A DNA stretch of 39,049 nt from Sphingomonadaceae bacterium (GTDB lineage Bacteria; Pseudomonadota; Alphaproteobacteria; Sphingomonadales; Sphingomonadaceae). The position numbers were made by a program, and so were the translations under genes. The DNA is taken from positions 1-39,049 of the forward strand of contig CANGQZ010000005.1 in assembly GCA_947455865.1 (NCBI GenBank). Reading direction: 5' to 3'. Of the stretch, positions 3,380 through 37,471 are shown one piece after another (position 1 is the first letter of the stretch; each line of letters begins with the position of its first letter). The notes below the pieces were generated by a model. It ran no database searches, was not told where the DNA came from, and saw only the letters and a list, made by a program, of their open reading frames with translations.

Positions 3380-5805
3380 TGCCCTGGGCGGATGCACGGC
3401 GCGGGGGCGCAGGCCCCGAACAGGGGACAGGCGGGATGACGTTGTGGCCGGCACGGATCGTTGCGGCGATCCTTTTCGCGATCGGGCTGGCTGTGGCCGG
3501 CGGCGGAGCCTACCTACTCTTGCTCGGCGGATCGGCCTATTACCTCGTCGGCGGGATCGCGGTGGCGCTGGCCGGATGGTGGACGTGGCGCGGCGAGGCG
3601 CGCGGCGGATGGTTGTACGGGCTGTTTCTGGCCGCAACGATGGGCTGGGCGCTGTGGGAATCGGGACTTGATGCGTGGCAGCTGACGGCGCGAATCTTCG
3701 GCCCGGCGGTGATCGGGCTACTGTTCGCGCTACCCCCGGTGCGCCGCCCGCTGGGCCGCGGTGGCAACGCCGCAGCGCTGGTCGCGCTGGCCGGGGTGGC
3801 GCTGGTATCGGCAAGCCACTTGCGTTCGCCGATGGAGATCGCGGCGCAGGGTGCGGCGGTGCGCGAGCAGCTGGCGATTGCCGGCAATCCTGGCGAATGG
3901 CGGGTGTGGGGCCGTGACGATGGCGGCACCCGGTTTTCACCGGTCAGCCAGATCACGCCAGAGAATGTCAGCAAGCTCAAGTTGGCGTGGCAGTTCGACA
4001 CCGGGATCGATCCGATGTCGCAGCCGACGCCGAGCCCGATGCAGACGACCCCGCTGATGGTTGATGGCAAGCTGTTCTTCTGCACCCAGACCAACGTGGT
4101 CTTCGCGCTCGATCCCGATAGCGGCAAGCAGGCGTGGCGGTTCGATCCCAAGGTCGACCCAGCCGGCGGCTCGGTCGTGCGCACCTGCCGCGGGGTCGCC
4201 TATCACGATGGCGCACCCGGGTTGGCCGACGGCACCGCGCCGTTCTGCGCCCGCAAGATTATCACCGCGACTTATGGCGCGCAGCTGATCGCGCTCGACA
4301 GCCAGACCGGGCGCCTCTGCCCCGGCTTCGGCAATGCCGGCTTCGTCAATCTCAAGGACGGGCTGGGCGAGGTTGCCACAGGGTATTACTATGTCAGCTC
4401 GGCGCCGGGGATCGTGCGCGACACGATCGTGGTTGGCGGCTGGGTGGCGGACAATGTCAGCACTGACGAGCCTTCAGGCGTGATCCGCGGTTTTGATGTC
4501 GCCACCGGCAAGCTGCGCTGGGCATGGGACGCGGGCAATCCCGGCAACCATGCCGCGCCGGCGCCAGGACAGAGCTACACCCGCTCGACCCCCAATTCGT
4601 GGGCGCCGATGAGCGTCGATGCCGCGCTGGGCCTCGTGTTCGTCCCGACCGGCAACCCTCCGCCCGACCATTTCGGGGCCAACCGTTCGCCGCTGAGCGA
4701 GAAATACGGCAGTTCGGTGGTGGCGATCGATGCGGTGAGCGGCGCGGTGCGCTGGTCATTCCAGACCGCGCATCACGATTTGTGGGACTACGACGTTGCC
4801 TCGCAGCCGACTCTGATCGATTTCCCCGGCCCGGGCGGCCCGATCCCGGCGCTGGTCCAGCCGACCAAGCGATCCGAAGTGTTCGTGCTCGATCGGCGCA
4901 CCGGGGTTCCGCTGACCCGGGTGGAAGAACGCCCGGCGCCGCAGCGCGGAAAAGTGCCCGAGGAGCGGCTGGCGCCGACCCAGCCGTTCTCGGTGGGCAT
5001 ACCCGACTTTTCGGGCGGCGTGCTCAGCGAACGGTCGATGTGGGGGATGACCCCGCTTGATCAGCTGTGGTGCCGCATCCGCTTTCGCCAGCTGCGCTAT
5101 GACGGACGCGAGACCCCGCCGGGACTGGACGAATCGATCATCTTCCCGAGCATCGGCGGAGGGCAGAACTGGGGCGGGGTTTCATATGATCCCGAGCGCA
5201 AGCTGCTGATGGTCAATTCGCTGCAGTATGCCAGCCTGATCTACCTGGTCCCACGCGCGGAAACCGACCGGTTGATCGCCAAGGCCAAGGCCAGCGGCGA
5301 CAGCCATAGCACCGCCAACTTCGACATTCCCCAGCCGATGGCGGGAACGCCTTATGGCGCCAAGCTGCGCGGGTTCACCACCCCGTTCGGGACGCTGTGC
5401 AATCCCCCACCATATGGCCGGCTGACCGCGGTGGACATGACCACCGGCAAAGTCCGCTGGCAGCGCCCGGTCGGGACGATGCAGGACAGCGGGCCGTTCG
5501 GGCTGGAATCGGGCCTGAAGATCCCGATGGGCATGCCCGGGTTCGGCGGCACGCTCGTCACCCGCAGCGGGCTGACCTTCTTCGGCGGCCAGAAGGAGCG
5601 GACGTTCCGGGCCTTTTCCACCGAGAGCGGGGCCGAACTGTGGTCGACGCGGATGCCGGCGAGTGGCAATGCCAATCCGATGACTTACCTTGGCCCCAAA
5701 AGCGGCCGCCAGTTCGTGGTGATCGCCGCCACCGGCCACGTAACCTCGCAATCCCTGCCCTTGGGCCGGACCATCCAAGCCTATGCCTTACCGGAGACGA
5801 AGTGA
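3379..5805 (+). CDS. Membrane-bound PQQ-dependent dehydrogenase, glucose/quinate/shikimate-like family
   Basis: N-terminal hydrophobic segments followed by a PQQ beta-propeller (GEWRVWGRDDGGTRFSPVSQITPENVSKLKLAWQFDTG, TPLMVDGKLFFCTQTNVVFALDPDSGKQAW, WDYDVASQPTLIDFPG). Start overlaps the SDR stop. Confidence 0.88.
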   Translation: MPWADARRGGAGPEQGTGGMTLWPARIVAAILFAIGLAVAGGGAYLLLLGGSAYYLVGGIAVALAGWWTWRGEARGGWLYGLFLAATMGWALWESGLDAWQLTARIFGPAVIGLLFALPPVRRPLGRGGNAAALVALAGVALVSASHLRSPMEIAAQGAAVREQLAIAGNPGEWRVWGRDDGGTRFSPVSQITPENVSKLKLAWQFDTGIDPMSQPTPSPMQTTPLMVDGKLFFCTQTNVVFALDPDSGKQAWRFDPKVDPAGGSVVRTCRGVAYHDGAPGLADGTAPFCARKIITATYGAQLIALDSQTGRLCPGFGNAGFVNLKDGLGEVATGYYYVSSAPGIVRDTIVVGGWVADNVSTDEPSGVIRGFDVATGKLRWAWDAGNPGNHAAPAPGQSYTRSTPNSWAPMSVDAALGLVFVPTGNPPPDHFGANRSPLSEKYGSSVVAIDAVSGAVRWSFQTAHHDLWDYDVASQPTLIDFPGPGGPIPALVQPTKRSEVFVLDRRTGVPLTRVEERPAPQRGKVPEERLAPTQPFSVGIPDFSGGVLSERSMWGMTPLDQLWCRIRFRQLRYDGRETPPGLDESIIFPSIGGGQNWGGVSYDPERKLLMVNSLQYASLIYLVPRAETDRLIAKAKASGDSHSTANFDIPQPMAGTPYGAKLRGFTTPFGTLCNPPPYGRLTAVDMTTGKVRWQRPVGTMQDSGPFGLESGLKIPMGMPGFGGTLVTRSGLTFFGGQKERTFRAFSTESGAELWSTRMPASGNANPMTYLGPKSGRQFVVIAATGHVTSQSLPLGRTIQAYALPETK

Positions 5806-32550: not shown

Positions 32551-32913
32551 CGGGCGTCTAGCAGGTCCCCTGCCCCGCTGGTTTGCGACGGCATTTGCCG
32601 CCTTTTGCCCCCTCTTGCTTCCACAGTGCTTACAGCCTGTCCGGCCTAGGTGCCCCAAATACCTGCTGTGATTCGAGCGGGATGCCTTCGGGCGTGCCTT
32701 GCGCCGCTCTTTAACCAACTCGCCGCATACGCCCTAGCACGCCGATTTTCCTTTTATTGCTTATTTTCAATATGTTCGTTGACTCCAAGAGCACTGATAA
32801 GCACCCGTGTTGTCGGCCAAGGCATGACCGGTCGCATCGAGGTGGGCCGCCAACCACCGAGATGCAACCTGCCTGCTACGGTCGAAAATCCGATCGACAA
32901 AAGTGACACGGAC

Positions 32914-34071
32914 ATGGCCAAGATAACCAAACGCACGGTCGAGACGGCCGCCCCTAGGGACAAGGAGTATTACATCTGGGACGAGGACATCCCGGGCCTT
33001 GGCCTGCGGGTTCTACCCTCCGGCCGCCGGCAGTATATTGTCCAATATCGCGCTGGACGGCGATCACGCCGGATCTCGCTCGGCCCCAGCACCATCCTTA
33101 CCACCGAACAGGCACGCAGCCGGGCTCTCGCCATACTTGCTGATGCCCGCAGTGGCAAAGATCCCGCTGCAGATAGAGAGGCGCGCCGAGACGCGTTGCT
33201 GGTCAAGGATCTCGCCGAGCGGTTCGACCAGCAGCACATCTCGCTGCGGATCAAGGCCAGCACCGCCAAGGGTTACAGGCGTTCGCTCGCCAAATTCATC
33301 CTGCCCAAGCTAGGGCAGATGGTGATCACGGACGTCACCCGCGCTGACGTTGCCAAGTTCCATCATGACCTGCGGCACATCCCCTATGAGGCGAACCGCT
33401 GCCTCGAAATCATCTCCAAGATGTTCAACCTGGCTGAGCTGTGGGGGCTCCGCCCCGACGGCAGCAATCCTCGCCGCCTGATCCAGAAGTACCCCGAGGT
33501 GAAGCGAGAACGGTTCCTTAGCCTCGACGAGATCAAGCATCTCGGGGACGTGCTGCGGGAGGTCGAGCAGGAGGGGCGTGAGATGCCCTCTGCCATCCTC
33601 GCGATCCGGCTGCTTCTTTATACCGGTTGTCGGCTCAGCGAGATCATGACCTTGCAGTGGGACTTTGTTGATCTCGAAGAGCGGGTATTGAACCTTCCGG
33701 ATTCAAAGACCGGCGCCAAGAAGGTGTTCCTCGGGAAGCCGGCTCGCGAACTGCTGGAGAACGCCCCTCGCCTGCCCGACAACCCATGGGTGATTACAGG
33801 GACAATACCTGGTCACCGGTTAACCGATCTACAACCGTTCTGGCAGCGCGTGCGTGCTCGCGCGGGTCTCACCGAAGTACGGATCCATGACCTGCGCCAT
33901 ACCTTCGCGTCGACGGCGATTGCTGCTGGACACTCTCTACCCATCATCGGGAAGCTGCTCGGGCATACCCAGGTGCAGACCACAGCCCGCTACGCCCACC
34001 TGGCAGCCCAGCCCGCCATGATTGCGGCGGACTCGATTACCGATGTGCTGGATCGCGCCCTGGCCGCCTGA
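32914..34071 (+). CDS. int: Tyrosine-type integrase of an integrative element
   Basis: YTGCRLSEIMTLQWDFVD, RIHDLRHTFASTAIAAGHSLPIIGKLLGHTQVQTTARYAHL (R...HxxR...H...Y). Start placed at MAKITKRTVE. Confidence 0.95.
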   Translation: MAKITKRTVETAAPRDKEYYIWDEDIPGLGLRVLPSGRRQYIVQYRAGRRSRRISLGPSTILTTEQARSRALAILADARSGKDPAADREARRDALLVKDLAERFDQQHISLRIKASTAKGYRRSLAKFILPKLGQMVITDVTRADVAKFHHDLRHIPYEANRCLEIISKMFNLAELWGLRPDGSNPRRLIQKYPEVKRERFLSLDEIKHLGDVLREVEQEGREMPSAILAIRLLLYTGCRLSEIMTLQWDFVDLEERVLNLPDSKTGAKKVFLGKPARELLENAPRLPDNPWVITGTIPGHRLTDLQPFWQRVRARAGLTEVRIHDLRHTFASTAIAAGHSLPIIGKLLGHTQVQTTARYAHLAAQPAMIAADSITDVLDRALAA

Positions 34072-34503
34072 TCAGGATTGCTTAGATGTCCAAGCGCTCA
34101 CTGCATCGGGATATCCATCCAGGAACGCATCCTCATCGATGCGTATACCCCTATAAACTATGATCTTTTCGTACTTTCGCTTTTCATATTCGAAGTACGA
34201 ATAAATGACGAAGTCGCCTCGGAGGCTCTGATTCGAGATCATTTTTCCGAATGATATGCAGTCGTCGTCTTCGTACCTGTGATCGACCGAGACCAAGTCG
34301 CGAAGAAAATTATCAGCGTCGTCCTCAGTCATTTTTCTCAATGGGAGCAGCAAATCCATGGGGATCTGCGCATCAGCAGGAAGATCGCACACACTCCCTG
34401 TAATCGCATCGGGCGGTATCCGCTCGAATAGCTTCTGCAAATCGAGCGGATCAGCCCCCCTAAGGCCTATCCGACGGCACGCTTCCCCCGGTGAAATCAA
34501 CAT
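34072..34503 (-). CDS. Hypothetical protein (143 aa) translationally coupled to Abi gene
   Basis: ATG at 34503 overlaps the Abi stop (TGTTGA); acidic N-half, C-terminal GDFVIYSYFEYEKRKYEKIIVYRGIRIDEDAFLDGYPDAV. No family recognised. Confidence 0.65.
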   Translation of the reverse strand: MLISPGEACRRIGLRGADPLDLQKLFERIPPDAITGSVCDLPADAQIPMDLLLPLRKMTEDDADNFLRDLVSVDHRYEDDDCISFGKMISNQSLRGDFVIYSYFEYEKRKYEKIIVYRGIRIDEDAFLDGYPDAVSAWTSKQS

Positions 34504-35429
34504 TGCCAGCAAGGCCTCGCTTCCCAGTTTTCGGGAAATCCCATTGACCGTTGATTGGCTGACGACCGCGAGTTGATCAAATCAGCTACCCGCTGCGGGA
34601 ATGTAGTGTCCTGGCTCTGATGCCGCAGCATATGGATCAGAGCCACGAGCGCATTGTAGATCTGGTTCGCAGGCTGATTTTGAATGCCGCTGCCAGTCTC
34701 GACCTGCCCGATAACCAGGTCGCCGCTGAATCGTTTGATCAACGGCAGCCGCTTGACGGTATGCCGGTTCCAGAGCCTGCCGTGATGCGCGCAGATATTG
34801 CGGATGTAGGAGAGCAGTTGCAGCGTACCTTCGAGCACCTCACGAGACGGCAGGCCGAGGTCCTTAGCCACCGCGCTCCTGATTTTCGGGTCTTTTGTGG
34901 CCGCGAACCAACGGGAGAGTTCGCCAAAGGTCATCAGCTCCGTGACGATCCATAACGGCGGCATGAACGGGGCGGTATATTTGCGACGGTAATGGTCAAC
35001 AAACACCTCGTTGCTATCTTTGGCCCTGTTCGCAAGGGCCGACAGCAATGCGATATGATCATAACCCGATTGGAATACCGAGGCATCCAGGTGCGCATGT
35101 GAGCCGTGAGCTAGCGCCAATCTGTTTGTCCAACGGGCCCGCAACGCGATCTCGATGCGCTCGATCGCTTCCATGATCAACAATCGCAGCTTTCGGTCGA
35201 ATACATAGATGTCGACGATCGTGTCGAATTGGAGGTCATTGGCAAACTGCTTGGACCGGGTCTGGCCATCTGTTGGCGGAACCTCGAAGGGCAACCAGTA
35301 AGCGCTGAGCCGGTAGTATCCAACCGTCTCCAACCAACGACGCATCAGCGATTGGTCGCCCTGCATCCCCCGCTCTATCAGCAGGGTGATTTGATCATCT
35401 ATCGTGGTTGGCAGTTTGTTGAAATGCAT
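34497..35429 (-). CDS. Abi family protein (Abi_2; AbiD/AbiF-like HEPN)
   Basis: MHFNKLPTTIDDQITLLIERGM...VGYYRLSAYWLPF...FDRKLRLLIMEAIERIEIALRARW...PLWIVTELMTFGELSRWF...YIRNICAHHGRLWNR (HEPN R-x4-H-like motif). Confidence 0.93.
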   Translation of the reverse strand: MHFNKLPTTIDDQITLLIERGMQGDQSLMRRWLETVGYYRLSAYWLPFEVPPTDGQTRSKQFANDLQFDTIVDIYVFDRKLRLLIMEAIERIEIALRARWTNRLALAHGSHAHLDASVFQSGYDHIALLSALANRAKDSNEVFVDHYRRKYTAPFMPPLWIVTELMTFGELSRWFAATKDPKIRSAVAKDLGLPSREVLEGTLQLLSYIRNICAHHGRLWNRHTVKRLPLIKRFSGDLVIGQVETGSGIQNQPANQIYNALVALIHMLRHQSQDTTFPQRVADLINSRSSANQRSMGFPENWEARPCWQC

Positions 35430-35520
35430 GGGGCCTCATCGACTACTCGACGAGGCCCCAAAAAGTAACCCCCCGGTGTTGGGCAAGCCGAAGCTCTAGG
35501 CCTGGGGGGTGTTGTTGCCC
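35430..35520 (-). ncRNA. Candidate structured RNA upstream of the Abi gene
   Basis: On the - strand: GGGGGGCAACAACACCCCCCAGGCCTAGAGCTTCGGCTTGCCCAACACCGGGGGGTTACTTTTTGGGGCCTCGTCGAGTAGTCGATGAGGCCCC; 7-bp outer stem, C(UUCG)G hairpin and 13-bp hairpin with one G:U only on this strand. Confidence 0.6.
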
Positions 35521-35523
35521 CCC

Positions 35524-35551
35524 ATGTATGCCCACAAATCCTAATGGTCAA
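35524..35551 (-). promoter_or_regulatory. Sigma70-like promoter for the Abi-associated RNA
   Basis: On the - strand TTGACC-16 nt-ATACAT, placing the start at or near the GGGGGG that opens the structured region. Confidence 0.5.
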
Positions 35552-35617: not shown

Positions 35618-36259
35618 TCACGGCATAGCGTCGTCCACGGACACATAAAAGCCTCGGCGATGAGACCCTCTGTAGCGAATGAGTCCGCGGTCCTTTAGCT
35701 CGGCAATGTCGCGTTTGGCAGTGCGTCCGCTCACTGCCCAGCGAGCAACAATGTCTTCGAAGGTGCAACGATAACCGCTCGCGACTCGAGCCAAGAGCCA
35801 CTCCTGGCGCTCGTTCAGCGGCACATTATTGGTGACATGCATGTCACCAATAATGTCACCATTCGTGTCACCATTAATCTGGGCACTCCGGGTAGTCTGC
35901 GATGGTGACACGGCCGCATCTGGCCGGCTGGAACTTGGCTCCTCGGAACCATCTTCCAGCGCAATGATTGGAGGTTTTATCACCTCAAGCTCTGTCAAAT
36001 GCGCCAGAACCAATTCCCGAGCGGCCTGAGATTTTACGCAAAGTCTCATTAGAAAATAGCCGCTTGGGCCAATCTCCCCGCTGAGCCAATTCTTCACGCT
36101 GCGCTCACTGGCGCCAGTCCACCTCATGATGGTTTTCACCGACCGGTGGGTCTCATCGTGCTCGAGGCGCAATGCCTCGGCAATGAGCTCTGCATAGTCC
36201 TTCGCCGACTTCGCCAGCCCGTTCCACGGGTGCAACATCTTGCCCTTTTTCGGCAACAT
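35618..36259 (-). CDS. HTH domain-containing putative transcriptional regulator
   Basis: HRSVKTIMRWTGASERSVKNWLSGEIGPSGYFLMRLC (HTH) and C-terminal winged helix FEDIVARWAVSGRTAKRDIAELKDRGLIRYRGSHRRGFY (DeoR-like). Confidence 0.75.
   Translation of the reverse strand: MLPKKGKMLHPWNGLAKSAKDYAELIAEALRLEHDETHRSVKTIMRWTGASERSVKNWLSGEIGPSGYFLMRLCVKSQAARELVLAHLTELEVIKPPIIALEDGSEEPSSSRPDAAVSPSQTTRSAQINGDTNGDIIGDMHVTNNVPLNERQEWLLARVASGYRCTFEDIVARWAVSGRTAKRDIAELKDRGLIRYRGSHRRGFYVSVDDAMP
35825..35854. repeat. Perfect 30-bp palindrome within the HTH gene
   Basis: ATTATTGGTGACATG|CATGTCACCAATAAT is exactly self-complementary; followed by further GTCACC copies. Confidence 0.9.
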
Positions 36260-36436
36260 CCTCCGCTCCTTTCAACGCTAAATTCACGTGCGAGCGGAAC
36301 GGTAGGCAGAGGTGCTCTTCGGGCTGCAGTTGGTGGATGCCCTGGACTGCTGCAGCGGCTGAACCGGAAAGGGCGACGCTTGAAGGATTGGAAGAACGAA
36401 CGGGACCGAAACAGCGACGACCCGCCAGCGCGCGCT

Positions 36437-37471
36437 GTGCGGGCTGCGGAATATGTCCGCATGTCTACCGACCATCAAAAATACTCGACGGAAAATCAGG
36501 CCGACGCGATCCGTAAATACGCGTCCACCCGCGGGATCGAAATTGTCCGCACTTATGCCGATGATGGCAAAAGCGGCCTGTCGATCGATGGACGTGCCTC
36601 GCTTCAGCGCCTGATCGCCGATGTTGAGGCTGGCGCCGCCGATTTCGAGATGATCTTGGTTTATGACGTGAGCCGCTGGGGCCGCTTCCAGGATGCGGAC
36701 GAAAGCGCCTATTACGAATACATATGTCGGCGATCCGGGATCCAGATCGCCTATTGCGCCGAACAGTTCGAAAACGACGGCTCTCCGATGAGCACCATGT
36801 TCAAGGGCTTCAAACGAGCCATGGCCGGCGAATACAGCCGGGAACTCTCAGTAAAGGTCTTCGCCGGGCAATGCCGGCTGATCGAGAAAGGCTATCGCCA
36901 AGGTGGTCCAGCCGGCTTCGGCCTTCGCAGAACACTGATCGATGAGCACGGAACAGCCAAGGCAGTACTCGGGCGTGGTGAGCAAAAGAGCCTCCAGACC
37001 GATCGCGTAATTCTGACGCCAGGGCCGGCCGATGAGATTGCCATTGTCGGGGAAATCTACCGCGCTTTCGTCCATGAGGGGCGGTCAGAACGCGAGATAG
37101 CCGACGATCTCAACACCCGCGGAATTCTGACAGATCTCCAGCGTCCGTGGACCAGGGGCACCGTCCATCAGCTGCTGGTCAACGAAAAATATGTCGGCGA
37201 CAACGTATGGAACAGACGCTCGTTCAAGCTGAAGCAGAAAAGGGTCCAGAACGTTCCTGACATGTGGATCAGGGCGTCGGGTGTCTTCGAGGGGATCGTG
37301 GAACGCGACCTCTATGACGCCGCCCATTCGATCATCAATGCTCGGTCTTTCCGCCTGTCCGATGCCGAAATGCTGGAGGCGCTCCAGACCCTCTATGCGC
37401 AGAAGGGGCTGCTCTCTGGCATCATCATTGACGATTGCTGTCCGCCGTCAGCACCAATGGCACAGATTTGA
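36437..37471 (+). CDS. Large serine recombinase (resolvase family), C-terminally truncated or frameshifted
   Basis: AAEYVRMSTDHQKYSTENQADAIRKYASTRGIEIVRTYADDGKSGLSIDGRASLQRLI...VYDVSRWGRFQDADES; recombinase domain VNEKYVGDNVWNRRS. ORF ends 3 nt before the IS3 end. Confidence 0.85.
   Translation: MRAAEYVRMSTDHQKYSTENQADAIRKYASTRGIEIVRTYADDGKSGLSIDGRASLQRLIADVEAGAADFEMILVYDVSRWGRFQDADESAYYEYICRRSGIQIAYCAEQFENDGSPMSTMFKGFKRAMAGEYSRELSVKVFAGQCRLIEKGYRQGGPAGFGLRRTLIDEHGTAKAVLGRGEQKSLQTDRVILTPGPADEIAIVGEIYRAFVHEGRSEREIADDLNTRGILTDLQRPWTRGTVHQLLVNEKYVGDNVWNRRSFKLKQKRVQNVPDMWIRASGVFEGIVERDLYDAAHSIINARSFRLSDAEMLEALQTLYAQKGLLSGIIIDDCCPPSAPMAQI

Follow-up and report, generated by a model that had tools for sequence, protein, structure and literature searches.

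PbAbiF with its RNA has reportedly been described by Zilberzwige-Tal et al.; the type III system ToxIN combines a tandem-repeat antitoxin with a toxin whose fold is unrelated to that of AbiF; and in type I toxin mRNAs the Shine-Dalgarno (SD) sequence is sequestered by mRNA structure, the antitoxin being an antisense RNA. For the AbiF/RCd22 system of Clostridioides difficile, the available text of PMC12373285 describes an RNA and a toxin that share a promoter, with most transcripts stopping at a terminator and read-through yielding the toxin mRNA, and reports that RCd22 was shown to bind and neutralise its toxin. Within the literature searched, as far as its text was available, control that keeps AbiF toxin below antitoxin is described for this one organism, as transcription termination. 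AbiF systems are taken in the same literature as ancestors of Cas13 (available parts of PMC12373285 and PMC12737573).

The locus studied here lies in a window of 39,049 nt, by which we mean the whole stretch of DNA analysed. It resembles AbiF/RCd22 in having an Abi_2 HEPN toxin, an upstream abiF-motif RNA and a stem-loop between RNA and toxin, and its RNA and toxin are probably likewise co-transcribed, with read-through giving the toxin mRNA. Whereas RCd22 is described with two motifs, a terminator with a U-stretch and the toxin RBS AGGTGA (PMC12373285, available text), the window has a single motif and a hairpin that lacks a clear U-tract, contains the RBS and touches the ATG. PDB 8vz6, the only solved relative found (E 5.9e-39), is named PbAbiF in the accessible part of PMC12737573, and with it the locus shares a homologous toxin, the same R210/H215 positions and an antitoxin RNA of the abiF kind (PMC12373285, PMC12737573, both in part). 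An upstream RNA antitoxin, an RNase toxin and, probably, sparse toxin expression recall type III ToxIN as outlined in PMC12373285 (available text). As in type I toxin mRNAs with a sequestered SD, translation would be held off by structure over the RBS; unlike in those, the antitoxin here would by analogy be a protein-binding RNA and the lock a separate local hairpin. The parts are known; what is new, as far as the literature searched goes, is a putative RBS-locking hairpin local to an AbiF leader. A full-text search, with subscription papers mostly outside it, brought up no account of an occluded RBS for AbiF.

Toxin gene, antitoxin RNA and surroundings

On the minus strand, a promoter-like pair is followed in turn by the abiF-type RNA, the hairpin, the ATG and the rest of the toxin gene (Table 1). 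To judge by its sequence, the gene encodes a phage-defence toxin, an HEPN RNase of the Abi_2/AbiF kind: its product matches Pfam PF07751 (Abi_2) with E 4.8e-55 (187.2 bits, cut-off 25.6) and PADLOC AbiD with E 2.8e-65, and its RNxxxH motif aligns with RNSCCH of 8vz6. In PbAbiF, R210 and H215 are described as needed for activity, the double mutant being inactive (PMC12373285, available text). The first possible toxin start is at 35429, because an in-frame TGA (35438-35436) lies three codons upstream; homologues begin at the same residue and indicate no downstream start, which upholds the ATG chosen in the preliminary description. Annotated Abi starts deviate from the homologous start in some relatives, lying 63 nt downstream of it in L072 and upstream of it in L074 (138 nt) and L075 (171 nt), and in the latter two the annotated abi gene overlaps the abiF RNA.

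Table 1. Features of the abiF locus in window coordinates
Feature	Position	Strand	Remarks
-35-like element TTGACC	35546..35551	-	17-nt spacer to TACATG
-10-like element TACATG, 3/6 matches	35523..35528	-	6 nt 5' of conserved AACAACACCC
abiF-type antitoxin RNA, single motif	35460..35516	-	model R2, E 2.7e-10, 49.4 bits
Outer stem of abiF-type RNA	35509-35504 pairing 35474-35469	-	
Single-stranded linker UUACUUUUU of abiF-type RNA	35468-35460	-	after outer stem
13-bp hairpin, loop GUAG, adjoining start codon	35430..35459	-	folding, and covariation in 6 sequences
Buried Shine-Dalgarno-like GAGG	35434..35437	-	4-nt spacer CCCC to ATG
Toxin start codon ATG	35427..35429	-	first in-frame start; homologues agree
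abiF toxin gene, 310 aa, Abi_2 family	34497..35429	-	Pfam, PADLOC and PDB matches
HEPN RNase motif R210-NICA-H215, intact	34785..34802	-	aligned with 8vz6

No Rfam family matched the window at its gathering threshold. RF03085 (abiF) scored 24 bits (E 0.045 over 401 bases) against a gathering score of 37, and in a scan of 18 further loci abiF was listed in four, all below 37 (best 35.4, in L118); matches to snoZ242, MIR838 and HIV-1_SL4, far under their gathering scores, were taken as chance. Because the Rfam abiF match fell under the cut-off, we built a model of our own, R2, from eight AbiF loci, none of them from the window's clade. All 80 of the 80 cells in its alignment are paired and 5/10 pairs have changed on both sides; its consensus, an outer 6-bp stem and an inner 3-bp stem, is common to the window and other AbiF loci. 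An R2 search finds the window at 35517-35460 and recovers 21 of 29 further loci. By this test the RNA of the window is homologous to abiF RNA despite missing the Rfam cut-off, and it lies directly upstream of the Abi_2 gene on the same strand. That the toxin leader is an abiF-type antitoxin RNA is the main context, which the preliminary description had overlooked.

The -35/-10-like pair, with its 17-nt spacing, ends 6-7 nt before a conserved AACAAC in all nine loci checked. Since it is not the top-scoring pair at every locus, and since a strict promoter scan of the window, L054, L071 and L084 listed no promoter, this upstream pair included, we infer its use rather than take it as given. Spacing from the -10-like element would put the transcript start at A35516, 87 nt upstream of the ATG. 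At another locus (L156, 3942-3993) the abiF RNA runs into an annotated TTG start at 3992, the RNA 3' end covering the toxin start.

A tyrosine integrase gene (32650-34071, plus strand) and a serine recombinase gene (36146-37471, plus strand) flank the abiF locus, which is therefore probably in mobile DNA; no tRNA genes were found in the window. A 146-aa frame (34072-34512, minus strand) that overlaps the 3' end of abiF has no Pfam or PADLOC match and is either uncharacterised cargo or spurious. The neighbouring gene at 35618-36259 encodes an HTH protein, and within its frame lies an inverted repeat whose 15-bp arms match perfectly around a 4-nt loop (35823-35856), with more GTCACC repeats after it.

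The hairpin and the buried Shine-Dalgarno

Read on the minus strand, the hairpin is GGGGCCTCGTCGA-GTAG-TCGATGAGGCCCC, with one of its 13 pairs G-U. The earlier claim of a 13-bp hairpin with a 4-nt loop that ends at 35430, with the ATG immediately next, is exact, the gap being zero. In RNA folding the helix appears in the MFE and centroid structures alike and reaches 14 pairs through U35460, whose partner A35429 belongs to the AUG itself; the 127-nt leader has a z of -4.44. A 121-nt fold that paired a GGGGGG with CCCCCC of the abiF RNA was discarded, the GGGGGG lying upstream of the putative start A35516 and so outside the transcript; folded from A35516, the RNA takes up the abiF fold in place of that pairing. 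Inspection by eye of the abiF motif and hairpin revealed no conserved alternative, antiterminator-like pairing between them.

Contrary to the preliminary description, which had seen no SD, GAGG lies 4 nt before the ATG in the 3' arm of the hairpin; to judge from the sequence, the SD is occluded rather than absent. The same place holds AGGAGG or GGGGAGG in L003, L071, L084 and L119, and SD-like bases are present in the 3' arm at 7/7 loci of the hairpin clade, where a stem of the CCTC/GAGG type may simply bring them along. Duplex energies with the anti-SD tail, whose sequence we take to be the standard one, mark the sites of the window (-5.6 kcal/mol) and L083 (-4.7 kcal/mol) as weak, those of L003, L054, L071, L084 and L119 ranging from -10.6 to -11.6 kcal/mol.

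The hairpin is present in single copy in the 2.77-Mb assembly, so that an origin as a repeat or MITE was rejected. In 398 kb of the same genome, 11 hairpins of at least 13 bp occur on one strand (~3e-5 per position), and 4 of 21 hairpins of at least 12 bp sit 0-3 nt 5' of an ATG, GTG or TTG, counted where an open frame of at least 80 codons follows, such frames possibly not being genes. Because long hairpins adjoin open-frame starts this often, position alone is weak evidence; the case for the hairpin is carried by compensatory changes in relatives, as read from their sequences.

The hairpin clade comprises seven loci: the window, L003, L071 (on a Novosphingobium plasmid), L084, L119, L054/L086 (one locus, counted once) and L083. 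Protein identity to the window is 73% for L003, 75% for L071, 74% for L084, 75% for L119 and 63% for L054/L086. Among six aligned hairpins, 98.7% of 78 cells are paired and 5/13 pairs have changed on both sides (0-2 in slid controls), a count reached by 31/500 shuffles; the covariation score is 0.518, whereas shuffles gave 0.298, with 0/500 reaching the observed score, and slid versions no more than 0.190. L119, which came to light later, lies outside the six sequences and fits by eye. All these clade counts are inflated by shared descent, since they come from seven related loci only, one of them without a toxin gene. The last stem base touches the ATG in 6/7 clade loci. The exception is L054 (G139), where a T-run comes after the hairpin and the start is a TTG at the end of that run, so that several bases separate stem and start. 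Among the six is the toxin-less locus, L083 (G294, minus strand, motif 1554-1496), which retains the abiF RNA, the hairpin and ATGCTTT; no abi gene was found within the 3 kb of sequence covered and only weak partial AbiF matches elsewhere in G294, so it is a toxin-less remnant or a free antitoxin. More distant relatives (L072-L075, 53-56% identity) have the same RNA but lack the hairpin.

A search with model R1 at E <=0.001 matched 4/385 genomes of the class and 6/396 of the order, the window's own genome being in both sets. Among its weak matches is one AbiF locus, L118, which lacks the hairpin; L116, L117, L122 and L123, which have no abi gene within the 3 kb of sequence covered and look by eye like ordinary terminators, were rejected. 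The leader comparison was made without L068-L070, L008, L009, L012-L014, L016-L053, L055, L058, L059, L060, L062, L063, L065 and L066; L011, L015 and L061 are in no count, L005 and L006 are only in alignment A4 (uncounted), L007 is in A4 and A5 and outside the opening-cost set, and L075, whose leader looks the same as that of L074, is uncounted.

Freeing positions -15 to +6 is predicted to cost 24.8 kcal/mol in the window and 17.2-22.5 kcal/mol in five clade relatives, compared with 5.5-18.4 kcal/mol in 17 other AbiF loci. We compared 25 AbiF starts with those of 118 neighbouring genes drawn from the same records, omitting genes too near a locus end and setting the L072 and L074 starts by homology, regardless of annotation. 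The medians are 10.1 and 7.7, respectively (one-sided p 0.0015; 0.0034 without L071 and 0.0022 after GC correction), and 17 kcal/mol is reached by 3/25 AbiF starts versus 1/118 neighbours. In these predictions AbiF starts are generally more structured than those of their neighbours, with a modest effect outside the clade. At L078 (18.4 kcal/mol) an unrelated helix with GGGAGG inside it ends at the ATG, and L079, L080 and L010 have shorter ones, so start occlusion may have arisen more than once. In the clade, both SD and start region are paired, in a structure conserved by covariation, as in an RBS-sequestering element.

Possible roles of the hairpin

We regard it as fairly probable, from sequence comparison and modelled folds, that the locus as a whole constitutes a type III-like AbiF toxin-antitoxin system, its antitoxin being an RNA, and that the hairpin is a translation lock holding toxin output far under antitoxin output. 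One promoter, starting ~87 nt upstream of the toxin, would make a short abiF RNA that would bind and neutralise the toxin, and the toxin frame would be present only on read-through transcripts. On these, the hairpin (predicted to cost ~25 kcal/mol to open) would hide the SD in its 3' arm and end at the AUG; because it buries the RBS and touches the start codon, the toxin is probably made only sparingly. Of the options raised in the preliminary description, structure-gated translation is the best supported, by the conserved stem and the SD in its 3' arm; nothing in the sequence favours RNA processing or leaderless initiation. A point against the lock is that one so strong requires an opener for any toxin to be made. 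That it is opened by a specific event (an RNase cut, a helicase or a phage factor), with two layers, neutralising RNA and lock, on one leader, seems to us rather unlikely; if true, toxin would be made on demand at infection, beyond its release from a stored complex.

A less probable explanation, still a serious contender, is that the hairpin serves the antitoxin RNA as an intrinsic terminator, like the one in C. difficile RCd22, and has its U-tract merged with the first toxin codons AUGCUUUAU, so that toxin is limited by ending transcription and SD burial is a side effect. RCd22 is described as ending at such a terminator, with read-through into abiF (PMC12373285, available text); at L054 the TTG start comes at the end of a T-run; the hairpin and first codons pass a lenient terminator rule in 3/3 relatives scanned (L054, L071 and L084, the latter two with the tail TGCTTTATGA); and the hairpins of L116, L122 and L123, in related genomes, are GC-rich and followed by T-runs. 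The window itself, however, has T at only 4/8 bases after the stem and no terminator in the lenient scan, a T-rich tract (UUACUUUUU) already follows the abiF stem, and a terminator would require neither exact ATG abutment (6/7) nor SD bases in the 3' arm. Lock and terminator can both be true: the hairpin may have been recruited from the antitoxin's transcription terminator and may still act partly as one. The element between antitoxin RNA and toxin seems here to have become, or gained, a translation lock; the hairpin is clear and conserved, but its clade is small and the terminator a mundane rival.

We consider it very unlikely that the hairpin is a processing signal at or close to which a long transcript is cut, leaving an mRNA that starts at or close to the AUG, to be translated without a leader or after trimming. 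The AUG does adjoin the stem with zero gap, according to PMC12737573 (available part) AbiF processes its own RNA, and in C. difficile a cut is mapped 8 nt before the terminator stem, at the major 3' end of the antitoxin (PMC12373285, available text). AbiF is also described as single-strand specific (PMC12737573, available part), which makes cutting of the stem by Abi, as proposed earlier for autoregulation, unlikely and leaves that proposal unsupported; the single-stranded linker is a more likely processing site than the stem. Moreover, several bases lie between stem and start in L054, SD bases are retained in the stem, and the promoter scan found no promoter-like site nearer than the -87 pair that would give a leaderless start. 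Most improbable of all is that the inverted repeat acts in DNA, as an operator or a mobile repeat element, and not as an RNA element. A near-perfect inverted repeat would look similar and the HTH-protein gene is adjacent, but the clade has several G-U pairs, which suit RNA rather than a DNA palindrome and make an operator unlikely, and in L071 and L084 the hairpin persists in other contexts.

The same RNA class in viral contigs

The pattern of this RNA class was found in 25 viral contigs (IMG/VR, L087-L111), in which tblastn, within the contig DNA examined, gave no abi gene. A search of viral contigs with the toxin protein gave no relative. From their sequences, these orphan viral abiF-type RNAs could be phage-borne antitoxins with a counter-defence role against host AbiF. 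An abiF RNA has already been published for cyanophage S-CREM1 (PMC9964418, available part), and the accessible part of PMC12737573 cites, by title, a study of a region of phage sk1 that protects against AbiF. In contrast to the hairpin clade, and in keeping with a lock there, the SD is free in the viral contigs, with a predicted opening cost of 2.0-8.3 kcal/mol in the 24/25 computed, a cost lowered by AT-richness itself, as those genomes look AT-richer. In 23/25 contigs the frame directly after the RNA has its N-terminus in common with a UvsX-like recombinase, an identity checked in two (PHROG E 6e-67 and 1e-70). L089 has no clear gene after the RNA, and in L100, whose RNA is very like that of the window, the next gene encodes a major head protein.
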